Positions 9,340 to 12,222 of a stretch of 35,257 nt of DNA are shown here, one piece after another. The DNA lies in assembly GCA_019313185.1 (NCBI GenBank), contig JAFDBS010000206.1, forward strand, positions 1-35,257, given 5' to 3'. The notes below the pieces were generated by a model that was given only the letters and a program-made list of their open reading frames with translations, did no database searches and had not been told where the DNA came from. Source of the DNA: Deltaproteobacteria bacterium (lineage in GTDB: Bacteria > Desulfobacterota > Desulfuromonadia > Desulfuromonadales > BM103). The translations under genes were made by a program, and so were the position numbers. How positions within the stretch are numbered: position 1 is the stretch's first letter; every line of letters starts with the position of its first letter.

Positions 9340-9669
9340 CCAACGCCTGTACGTGTTTGCAGACTACCCGCAGTGAAGTCAAGATGTCCTGATGCTCTGA
9401 TCAGAGCACGCCTGTTTTCGGGCTTGTGAGAAATCAAGACATCTCAATCCATCTCGTGCAACGCTGCCGTTGGATTCTATTTAAACGGGCATCGGCTGAG
9501 GTCATGCCTTCAAAAACCTAACTTTAGTTTTATACTTTCCACTCTTTCGTTATATTGCACTTTCCTCTGGCTTGCATTAAACATAAAGACACCTTGAAAC
9601 GTTTGTCTGTCTGATTTGGAACTTATGTGAGTTCCTGCGGAATGTCCGCAACACAAATTGTTATTCACT
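9340..9669. other. intergenic region between arsJ and the riboswitch
   Basis: No gene. It holds a 16-bp perfect palindrome (9393-9408), a surrounding AGATGTC/GACATCT repeat (9382-9388 and 9438-9444), and AT-rich sequence at 9510-9600, where a promoter for the riboswitch transcript would be expected. TATACT at about 9530 is the best -10 candidate but lacks a good -35. Confidence 0.5.
9393..9408. repeat. 16-bp perfect palindrome after arsJ
   Basis: TGCTCTGATCAGAGCA, 54 nt after the arsJ stop. In RNA it would fold as a short hairpin; it has no T-run after it, so it is a poor intrinsic terminator. It could be a transcript-end stem or a protein site. Confidence 0.45.
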
Positions 9670-9748
9670 CCGAGAAGGGCAAACCTGTAGCAATGCAGGG
9701 ACGCAAAGTCTCAGATCCGCCCCAGCGGATGGCTGGACTGCCGAAGAG
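9670..9748 (+). ncRNA. cyclic-di-GMP-I (GEMM-I) riboswitch aptamer
   Basis: The segment carries the invariant GEMM-I core in order: GGGCAAACC (9677-9685), a stem CCTGTA/TGCAGG closed by a GCAA tetraloop (9688-9693 region), GGGACGCAAAG (9698-9708), a second stem ATCCGC/GCGGAT with loop CCCA (9715-9730), then GGCTGGACTGCCG. The GNRA loop and the second stem are the expected docking partners of this class. Ligand: the second messenger cyclic di-GMP. It lies upstream of two hairpins (9741-9777 and 9800-9836) and the membrane-protein gene at 9923. The 3' strand of the aptamer (CCGAAG, 9741-9746) is also the 5' arm of the first hairpin, so aptamer folding and termination should compete. Confidence 0.92.
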
Positions 9749-9777
9749 CTGGTTATCTTTTGCTGAACTTCGGTTTT
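9741..9777 (+). terminator. riboswitch expression platform, first terminator
   Basis: CCGAAG (9741-9746) pairs with CTTCGG (9768-9773), with inner AGC/GCT pairing, and is followed by TTTTCTCT. Because its 5' arm is shared with the 3' end of the aptamer, ligand binding that stabilises the aptamer would disfavour this hairpin. That predicts an ON switch, but the direction is inference. Confidence 0.6.
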
Positions 9778-9795
9778 CTCTGGAGGGGGGAGTAA

Positions 9796-9873
9796 ATGGG
9801 AGCCCACCTTGATTTTCGAAGGTGGGCTCTCATTTTCTCAGTGCATTTTCTCCGTGAACCATCTCCCTTCTGA
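9796..9873 (+). CDS. possible 25-codon leader peptide
   Basis: ATG at 9796 follows GGAGGGGGG by a few nt, so a ribosome could start here. The frame runs 25 codons (MGAHLDFRRWALIF...) and ends 49 nt before the membrane-protein gene. Its first codons form the 5' arm of the second hairpin, so translation would open that hairpin. No similarity to known leader peptides; it may be fortuitous. Confidence 0.3.
   Translation: MGAHLDFRRWALIFSVHFLREPSPF
9800..9836 (+). terminator. second terminator between riboswitch and gene
   Basis: An 11-bp perfect stem (GAGCCCACCTT with AAGGTGGGCTC, 9800-9810 and 9819-9829), 8-nt loop, followed by TCATTTTCTC. It is the stronger of the two hairpins. Transcription must pass it to reach the gene at 9923. 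Confidence 0.75.
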
Positions 9874-9922
9874 CGGCTGATGCTCAGCAAGCCATGATTT
9901 CAACAATTCAAGGAGGGGGATT

Positions 9923-10273
9923 ATGTTTTCTGTTTGGGCAATCATTTCCTGTGTTCTGCTAGTGCTGATCATGTGGCTAACCTATGCTCTGCAGAAAGAA
10001 CGCGAACAAAACCTGTGTTTGGCAAATGAGCTTATCGCTGTCAAAGCCGACAGTTTGTCCAACCACCACAGTTCGGAACTGCTGACCTCTTCAAGGGGTG
10101 AAGCGTCAGCCACCAACACATGTTTTTTCAGCCACGAATCCTGCGCCCAAACGGCTCCATACAAAACGCTGGGTTCTACCCACCAATCGTCATCAAAGCC
10201 TGACAAGGCCTCCCGCATCGATCGCCGAGGAGGGGCACAGTTGCTGAATTGTTCGGTCAAGTTTCAAGATTGA
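9923..10273 (+). CDS. 116-residue one-helix membrane protein under riboswitch control
   Basis: Unrecognised. It begins MFSVWAIISCVLLVLIMWL, a transmembrane helix at about residues 4-22 without a cleavage site, followed by a short charged helix (LQKEREQNLCLANELIAV) and a polar, Ser/Thr-rich tail with a few Cys that looks unstructured. A bitopic protein with a roughly 90-residue soluble tail is predicted. The start is well supported: AAGGAGG precedes the ATG. Upstream lie a cyclic-di-GMP-I aptamer and two hairpins, so its production should follow cyclic di-GMP, linking it to surface attachment, motility or envelope functions. The tail could be less conserved than the start. Confidence 0.75.
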   Translation: MFSVWAIISCVLLVLIMWLTYALQKEREQNLCLANELIAVKADSLSNHHSSELLTSSRGEASATNTCFFSHESCAQTAPYKTLGSTHQSSSKPDKASRIDRRGGAQLLNCSVKFQD

Positions 10274-10665
10274 GGAGTTGACCAAACCATCTTATAACGG
10301 GTTTTGGTCAACCACGGCGGTTGAAATGTCACGGATAAGGTTGATGACTGTCCGGGTTTGCCCTTTTGAAAATCAAACGACTCAGCTTGGCAACAGCTGC
10401 TCGCCTCTCTGAAGTCTTCTAAAAACGCCAGAGTTCCTGCGTACTCAACAACGTCCTGGAGTCGATCAGCAATAAACAGGCTGCAGTGGGTTGAAGGCCT
10501 TTGGACCGAACAAGGGGTCAAGACCATCCAGGTCCGTTTGTCCACAGACTCTTTCCCGCTTCTGATTTCTGTTTCATCGCCGAGGGACCTGTTGCTTGAA
10601 TCCACCCTTGACCGGCCGGCTTCGCATTGTCAATCGACTATGTCCGCAAGTGCTTGCTTCCTGTT
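10274..10665. other. intergenic region between convergent genes
   Basis: Apart from the inverted repeat at 10277-10312 I see no firm feature. A 113-codon minus-strand frame covers most of it but overlaps the repeat and the end of the upstream gene, so I do not call it. Confidence 0.45.
10277..10312. repeat. inverted repeat at the end of the riboswitch-controlled gene
   Basis: GTTGACCAAA (10277-10286) and TTTGGTCAAC (10303-10312) are perfect 10-bp arms around 16 nt. It begins 3 nt after the stop of the 116-aa gene. No T-run follows on either strand, so it would be an mRNA 3'-end stem or a protein site rather than a classic intrinsic terminator. Confidence 0.55.
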
Positions 10666-12153
10666 CTAATGTTTGCCTGACGGCAAGGTTTTCAAGTCAT
10701 CAAGCATGTCTTGAAGGTTTTTCTGTTGTGCCCACCGACCGTTTGCAAACACGCCATAGTCGGCCCCGCCCATCGCCGAAGCAAACCGGGTTGAGTTGCC
10801 AAAGAAAAGCCACTGTTCAATCCATTTCATTTCAATGCCCTCGTCAAAGGGGTTCTTTGCCTGTGGCAAACCTTCTGCCACCCCAGCCTCCCAGGCCTGA
10901 CTCAATATTTTGGTGGCCTGCAAGGTCATGTGGTTGGTGGTTTGGATCGACTTGTCAAGCCTCGCAAAATGGCCGTCTACCCATTGCCCGCTGTGACATC
11001 CACGGCAGACCGTCTTCATGGCCTGTAGACGCCTGGCCATTTCCTGTTCATCGATTAAAAACTTGGCAACTGGCTCCCCGCTCAATTCGGTCGGCAAGTT
11101 CAGACCACCTTGATTGACGATCTGTGTCGTATCGGCGGCAATCGGATGGGGATGGGCATAAGGCAGGCCAAAAATCCGCCAAGGCAGTCTGTCGTTCATC
11201 CGATGGGTGCGTTTGGCCAGAGTCTGCCCGTTGTCATCGTGGATCAGGCTAGCGTGGCACGTCGCGCAGGTGGGTGCTGTAAAATCTTTGCCAACAATCC
11301 ATGGGACAGCGTCATAGTTCCAGTTCTTATCCATCGATTTTTGAATGTTGCCATGAACACTCACCGAATATACTTTGTAAGCAGGGACATCTGGCCCCTT
11401 GTGACACTGCGCGCAGGTGTAAGGCTTGCGTGCGGTTTCAATGGAGAATTGATGTCGCATGTGACATGAGGAGCACGCGCCTGTCGAACCGTCCGGATTG
11501 ACACGTCCCACACCATTGTTGGGCCAATTCGATAGGGCCAGAAAATCCATCTTCCCCATTGCTGTCTCGCGGGTCTCGGTTCCTGTCACCCTGACTTCCG
11601 TCCCGTGGCATGACAAACAGGAATCTGCATTCGTCTGCTCGTCTGGCGCATGCATGCGCATCAGGGTCCCGTCGACTTCATGAGGTCCGTTGATGTTTTC
11701 AATCATCATCTGGTAGACAGGGTTTCTGACCAGGTTGCCATGCGCCTGACTCATCAAGTTGTGCATGTATTCTTGCTTTTCAACGGGATGGCAGACTGCA
11801 CAATCACTGGGCGACACAACAGTATGAATGGAATAACCATTATGGTCAAAACTGTCTGGGTGGTCCTCTGCATTCATGGTGTGGCATTCGGCACAACCAA
11901 CTGCGCTCCCGGACAGGTTTTCGGCAATACGGCTTGCAGAGATACGGCGCTCTTCATCTTTCTTGGCCAAACCTTCTGCTGGACTGACTGATGCGTGACG
12001 GCTGTTTTGCCAATCGCCGACGATTCCAGGCGTTACGATTTCATGACATCCCAAACAATTTTCCGTCTCTTCGCTCAAATTGGCGGCAATGAGTGCATTG
12101 GGCAACCAAAAGGTGCAAGTGACAAAAACAACCATGAGTGTCCCAATCTTCAT
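10666..12153 (-). CDS. octaheme c-type cytochrome, hydroxylamine oxidoreductase family
   Basis: A 495-residue secreted multiheme protein: signal peptide (about 1-23, ending LIAA), then eight CXXCH haem motifs at about residues 33, 87, 118, 179, 227, 247, 296 and 383. Spacing and segments such as WPNNGVGRVNPDGSTGACSS and YTCAQCHKGPDVPAY match the HAO/octaheme family, whose members oxidise hydroxylamine or hydrazine or reduce nitrite or hydroxylamine in the periplasm. The C-terminal GGADYGVF segment carries a Tyr; whether it is the cross-linking Tyr of true HAO needs an alignment, so oxidase or reductase cannot be told apart. Start 12153 is set by GGAGG upstream. No quinol-oxidising partner (NrfH/NapC or cytochrome c554-like) is adjacent. 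Confidence 0.9.
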   Translation of the reverse strand: MKIGTLMVVFVTCTFWLPNALIAANLSEETENCLGCHEIVTPGIVGDWQNSRHASVSPAEGLAKKDEERRISASRIAENLSGSAVGCAECHTMNAEDHPDSFDHNGYSIHTVVSPSDCAVCHPVEKQEYMHNLMSQAHGNLVRNPVYQMMIENINGPHEVDGTLMRMHAPDEQTNADSCLSCHGTEVRVTGTETRETAMGKMDFLALSNWPNNGVGRVNPDGSTGACSSCHMRHQFSIETARKPYTCAQCHKGPDVPAYKVYSVSVHGNIQKSMDKNWNYDAVPWIVGKDFTAPTCATCHASLIHDDNGQTLAKRTHRMNDRLPWRIFGLPYAHPHPIAADTTQIVNQGGLNLPTELSGEPVAKFLIDEQEMARRLQAMKTVCRGCHSGQWVDGHFARLDKSIQTTNHMTLQATKILSQAWEAGVAEGLPQAKNPFDEGIEMKWIEQWLFFGNSTRFASAMGGADYGVFANGRWAQQKNLQDMLDDLKTLPSGKH

Positions 12154-12222
12154 TCTTTCCTCCGTTGTTGAAACTGCTGGACGACAGGGGTTGGCCACAA
12201 TTCCCATCAATAAATTATTTTT

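Follow-up and report, generated by a model that had tools for sequence, protein, structure and literature searches.

A c-di-GMP-I riboswitch with an unusual arrangement of downstream hairpins precedes an orphan membrane protein gene in a member of the Desulfuromonadales

The forward strand of the window, the whole 35,257-nucleotide stretch of DNA analysed here, carries a GEMM-I riboswitch upstream of an orphan gene that encodes a small membrane protein. It is best read as an ordinary switch of known type, probably an ON-switch, with an unusual, putative expression platform. As read from the sequence, its two downstream hairpins are arranged unlike those of nearly all its neighbours. In the model that we favour, with a probability of roughly one half, the switch turns transcription on through exclusion of the first of these hairpins when ligand is bound.

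The aptamer (9668-9748, + strand), with its helices P1, P2 and P3, almost certainly belongs to the c-di-GMP-I (GEMM-I) class, as a sequence-only reading had proposed. It matches the covariance model RF01051 at 9668-9745 with 66.3 bits, well above the cut-off of 35 (model positions 1-87), and RF03167, the c-di-GMP-I-GGC variant, at 9669-9746 with 63.5 bits against a cut-off of 59 (E 6e-13, full model 1-80). The P1 strands lie at 9668-9672 (5') and 9742-9748 (3'). The model register places the equivalents of the ligand-contacting G20 and G21 at 9678-9679, of C46 and A47 at 9704-9705 and of C92, the ligand-pairing base (C75/C92; PMC9262584, PMC6274999), at 9741. All of the RF01051 contacts are present, namely G at 9678, A at 9705, C at 9741 and a confirmed G-C pair between 9679 and 9704, and this canonical set (G20, A47, C92 and the pair G21-C46) makes c-di-GMP the predicted ligand. 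The motifs of the core stand where the sequence-only reading had put them, but the core is complete and not, as that reading had it, nearly so: with its full-length match and three-helix aptamer, the window differs from RF01051 at no defining position, the downstream hairpins falling outside the family definition. Identity with the GGC variant was rejected despite the passing score, because the distinguishing G at the A47 position is absent; the RF03167 consensus reads GCGAAG (G47; GGGACGCGAAg), whereas the window has GCAAAG with A at 9705. That 'GGC' names G20, G47 and C92 is our own reading of this consensus. Just 5' of the aptamer, at 9619-9651, are two adjacent inverted repeats, GGAACT..AGTTCC and TGCGGA..TCCGCA, which could be operator or leader hairpins.

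The switch is one of many in its genome. In the assembly (2.47 Mb in 258 contigs, 86% complete), at least 13 c-di-GMP-I aptamers score above the cut-off of RF01051. Five of these 13 have G21-C46 (the window, one on contig C89 and three on contig C83) and the other eight have the flipped pair C21-G46, one of them, on contig C110, together with the A20 of cGAMP aptamers. The aptamer on C89, the most similar one that a DNA search found within the genome (76% identity), precedes an ON-type terminator of the plain kind (-17.5 kcal/mol), a point in favour of ON polarity in the window. Among the genes behind the other switches are those for a multicopper oxidase, an M14 carboxypeptidase, a glucosaminidase, an Asp/Glu racemase-like protein, an OmpA lipoprotein and a DUF11 protein, together with three whose products lack a Pfam match; most targets have a signal-like N-terminus. 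The three aptamers on C83 (L135) all have OFF-type distal hairpins carrying CUUCGG; two lie 222 bases apart before the exported DUF11 protein and one precedes the OmpA lipoprotein.

That the window aptamer senses 3',3'-cGAMP rather than c-di-GMP is improbable. A20, the cGAMP determinant, is frequent in close relatives of this order, including one of the sister loci described below (L053), and the genome itself has both the pilM-like A20 aptamer on C110 (L013) and a GGDEF domain (L158) whose GHxxGS motif is Hypr-like. The window, however, has G20 and G21-C46, whereas the solved cGAMP riboswitch has A14, C15-G40, A41 and C75 at the equivalent ligand-contact places (PMC6274999). Membership of the cGAMP class (GEMM-Ib), which requires A20 with C21-G46, was rejected on these bases, making that ligand unlikely. 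The genome holds seven GGDEF domains. The domain at L158 (G000:C105:18109-18576) carries the motifs GHLVGS and GGDEY, resembling the D-to-S substitution seen in Hypr cGAMP cyclases; this change (D348S) has been described for cGAMP-making Hypr enzymes (PMC6456294), and the GHxxGS motif was mapped to it by a residue correspondence made in this analysis. L158 and the A20 aptamer on C110 suggest that cGAMP signalling operates alongside c-di-GMP in this genome.

Hairpin 1 (9741-9781, + strand) pairs CCGAAG (9741-9746) with CTTCGG (9768-9773) and is followed by TTTTCTCT. Sequence and folding both bear out the earlier observation that CCGAAG serves at once as the 3' P1 strand and as the 5' arm of the first hairpin. 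The C92 equivalent is also the first base of the hairpin, and its pair C9741-G9773 closes the stem, sequestering the ligand-pairing C together with the 3' P1 strand in the manner of the pilM type of ON-switch. Since hairpin 1 uses both, it and the ligand-bound aptamer are mutually exclusive, which implies ON polarity if hairpin 1 or its consequence ends transcription. The region is more stable than its dinucleotide shuffles when folded (z -5.1). At the end of the U tract the hairpin-1 ensemble (-46.7 kcal/mol) is more stable than the aptamer ensemble (-35.1) by approximately 11.6 kcal/mol, so that ligand would be needed to hold the aptamer; equilibrium folding of this kind takes no account of kinetics or of the actual binding energy of the ligand. 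By the standard of its own genome, hairpin 1 is, on these models, a poor terminator: its stem has -8.8 kcal/mol versus -17.5 to -27.2 kcal/mol for eight ON-type switches, a range that leaves out C110, whose hairpin could not be well defined, and its U tract (TTTTCTCT) is short and broken.

Two further elements follow the stem of hairpin 1 on the same strand. The first, TTTTCTCTGGAG (9774-9785), is complementary to the 5' P1 strand and the bases that follow it, CTCCGAGAA (9668-9676), and approximately nine of these pairs are kept in three related loci. The second is a G-run, GGAGGGGGGAG (9782-9792), with two potential partners: the 5' P1 strand and the 5' arm of hairpin 2, where it might act as an antiterminator. 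In the absence of ligand, the 3' P1 strand would pair with CTTCGG and the 5' P1 strand with the following TTTTCTCTGGAG, which would destroy the aptamer, and transcription would end weakly at hairpin 1 or else at hairpin 2. With c-di-GMP bound, P1 would be held and hairpin 1 would not form; the G-run would then be free to pair transiently with the 5' arm of hairpin 2, allowing more polymerase to reach the gene. Folding supports this G-run step at two sister loci and does not support it at the window. The competition between hairpin 1 and the aptamer follows a logic measured for the Geobacter metallireducens ON-switch pilM, where the terminator sequesters C75, the ligand-pairing base (PMC9262584). 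In both, the ligand-pairing C is drawn into a hairpin along with the 3' P1 strand, and this hairpin and the aptamer are mutually exclusive. The window differs from pilM, a cGAMP sensor, in having G20 and G21-C46, in a hairpin 1 far weaker than the ON-type hairpins found elsewhere in the genome, and in the strong second hairpin that comes next.

This second hairpin (9795-9839, + strand) has a U-rich tail and resembles a strong intrinsic terminator, with a stem at approximately 9795-9834 of -29.4 kcal/mol; the sequence-only reading was thus right to place a second and stronger hairpin behind the first. Its U tract is modest in the window, and its A-rich 5' flank makes it possibly a bidirectional terminator. 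The exact sequence of the hairpin was not found in viral contigs, and no consensus promoter was found between it and the orphan reading frame. A reading frame of 25 codons at 9797-9874 has its ATG at the base of hairpin 2, where the preceding G-run could serve as a ribosome-binding site; an ATG occurs at the equivalent place in the sister locus L052 and is absent in L053.

In all modelled states, with and without the aptamer, hairpin 2 predominates at equilibrium, and the predicted blocking of its 5' arm in the window is 0.42 in both cases. Because it prevails in either state with no predicted coupling to the aptamer, it may simply terminate most transcripts. As a terminator of this unconditional kind, it would leave the switch mainly to set the length of a short leader RNA (approximately 110 or 170 nt), and the gene would be reached only by read-through, an account to which we give about half the credence of the ON-switch. 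Its stability and its presence throughout the models favour this account, while the modest U tract speaks against it, as do two non-syntenic loci that keep the same layout before genes for exported proteins, which argues for a role in controlling those genes.

Comparison with relatives shows how the window departs from the usual platforms. Among the 58 relatives, 54 carry c-di-GMP-I aptamers, and two types of platform are seen among them. In the first, a segment complementary to the 3' P1 strand follows closely on the aptamer and leads into a U-run, as in the pilM ON-switch (PMC9262584). In the second, a distal terminator carries CUUCGG in its 5' arm or loop and is blocked there by a free 3' P1 strand, as in the Clostridioides difficile switch Cd1, which is of the OFF type. 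At 22 of 30 loci with distal hairpins, a set that includes a few weak hairpin calls, the 5' arm is predicted to be blocked more once the aptamer is lost, the OFF direction. At L088, L090 and L149 the loop or 3' arm of the distal terminator also has a complement of 10-11 bases to the 5' P1 strand (UUAUCGGAGA), which enables the hairpins there to capture one P1 strand or both.

An OFF-switch in the window would work along the lines of the second type: without ligand the 3' P1 strand (CGAAGA) would pair with the loop of hairpin 2 (UUUUCG) and block it, and ligand would free the terminator. Like Cd1 and most OFF-type relatives, the window has a strong distal terminator approximately 55 nt past the aptamer, and in most relatives with such a terminator its 5' arm or loop contains CUUCGG and the predicted polarity is OFF, as was measured for Cd1 (PMC9262584). 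In the window, by contrast, a separate proximal hairpin holds the sequence that complements the 3' P1 strand; hairpin 2 is without CUUCGG and retains towards the 3' P1 strand just a weak loop match of six pairs, and the modelled coupling is zero. We regard an OFF-switch as a long shot for these reasons, and the ON-switch through hairpin 1 as the better reading.

The layout of the window recurs behind two other aptamers, at L052 (G014, strain IMCC39146) and L053 (G004). Behind the aptamer, all three loci have in the same order CUUYGG (in hairpin 1), a stretch rich in U that contains GGAG or GGGG, a G-run and a strong hairpin 2. Pairing of the U-rich stretch and GGAG/GGGG with the 5' P1 strand and the next bases gives -12.2, -15.1 and -11.3 kcal/mol across the three, and pairing of the G-run with the 5' arm of hairpin 2 gives -8.5, -9.0 and -8.8 kcal/mol. 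When the trio was aligned with MAFFT, hairpin 1 came out misplaced; the P strand is identical across the trio and so offers no covariation on that side. Over 136 genomes, a broadened search pattern for this layout matched the three loci, behind aptamers, and five other places (G089, G119, G026, G133 and G134), of which the four that were read as sequence have no aptamer in front.

No synteny was found among the three loci in the flanks compared, and the genes behind the platforms differ: they include those for proteins of 142 and 296 aa that lack a Pfam match, and for a beta-helix protein recognised by a weak match. Freeing the aptamer strands lowers the predicted blocking of the hairpin 2 5' arm from 0.57 to 0.38 at L052 and from 0.46 to 0.13 at L053, the ON direction and the opposite of the prediction for most of the 30 distal-terminator loci. 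The aptamers of L053, the window and L052 are 81-88% alike and are joined to the same platform, yet L053 has A20 where the other two have G20; the same layout may thus serve cGAMP at L053. We tentatively propose, as an idea with the odds against it, that the trio represents a third GEMM-I platform, in which complements of both P1 strands are brought together in one proximal element (CUUYGG, U-run, GGAG/GGGG) and a G-run links this element to a distal terminator, turning OFF into ON, while the change between G20 and A20 would let one platform serve two second messengers.

The gene downstream (P0001, 9923-10273, + strand) encodes a protein of 116 aa with an N-terminal membrane helix and a disordered polar tail. 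AlphaFold models a single confident helix at residues 2-46 and leaves the tail disordered, in agreement with the one-helix orphan described from the sequence. The 58 relatives yielded no homologue (the best match, with E 0.004, reaches 37% across 54 residues in the low-complexity tail). None was found in 84,980 species genomes, where protein-based scans detect close relatives only, or in viral contigs and plasmids, and no relative in Pfam, NCBIfam, PHROGs or the PDB. With its codon score of 0.009 per codon, lower than in any of the 22 long window ORFs compared and negative in the last half, this want of homologues in any collection searched could mean that the ORF is not a gene. We consider this unlikely: a ribosome-binding site, AAGGAGG (9910-9916, + strand), lies 6 nt 5' of the ATG, and the first 29 codons, which encode the membrane helix region, have a typical score of 0.18. 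When 9837-10313 was shuffled 20,000 times with its dinucleotides preserved, an ORF this long from an early start arose in 6% (1.8% with ATG), one with such a ribosome-binding site once and one with such a hydrophobic start 13 times, for features that had been picked after the ORF was seen. P0001 is probably a real gene, either fast-evolving or young.

The suggestion that P0001 is a new c-di-GMP effector found no support, given that a regulated gene is not the same as an effector. Exported targets without a Pfam match also follow the switches at L001, L011 and L012, so a target of this kind is unremarkable in this genome. P0001 is instead a candidate surface or envelope component. Directly 3' of its stop codon, at 10276-10313, is a hairpin (TTGACCAAACC..GGTTTTGGTCAA) with no U tract on either strand, and a multihaem cytochrome gene (10666-12210, - strand) is convergent with P0001.

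These observations place a small orphan membrane protein under predicted c-di-GMP control, in a genome that holds 13 or more GEMM-I switches and may use two second messengers. Should the platform function in the proposed way, the window and its two sister loci would show how both a reversal of polarity and a change of ligand can arise through small rearrangements around the same aptamer.
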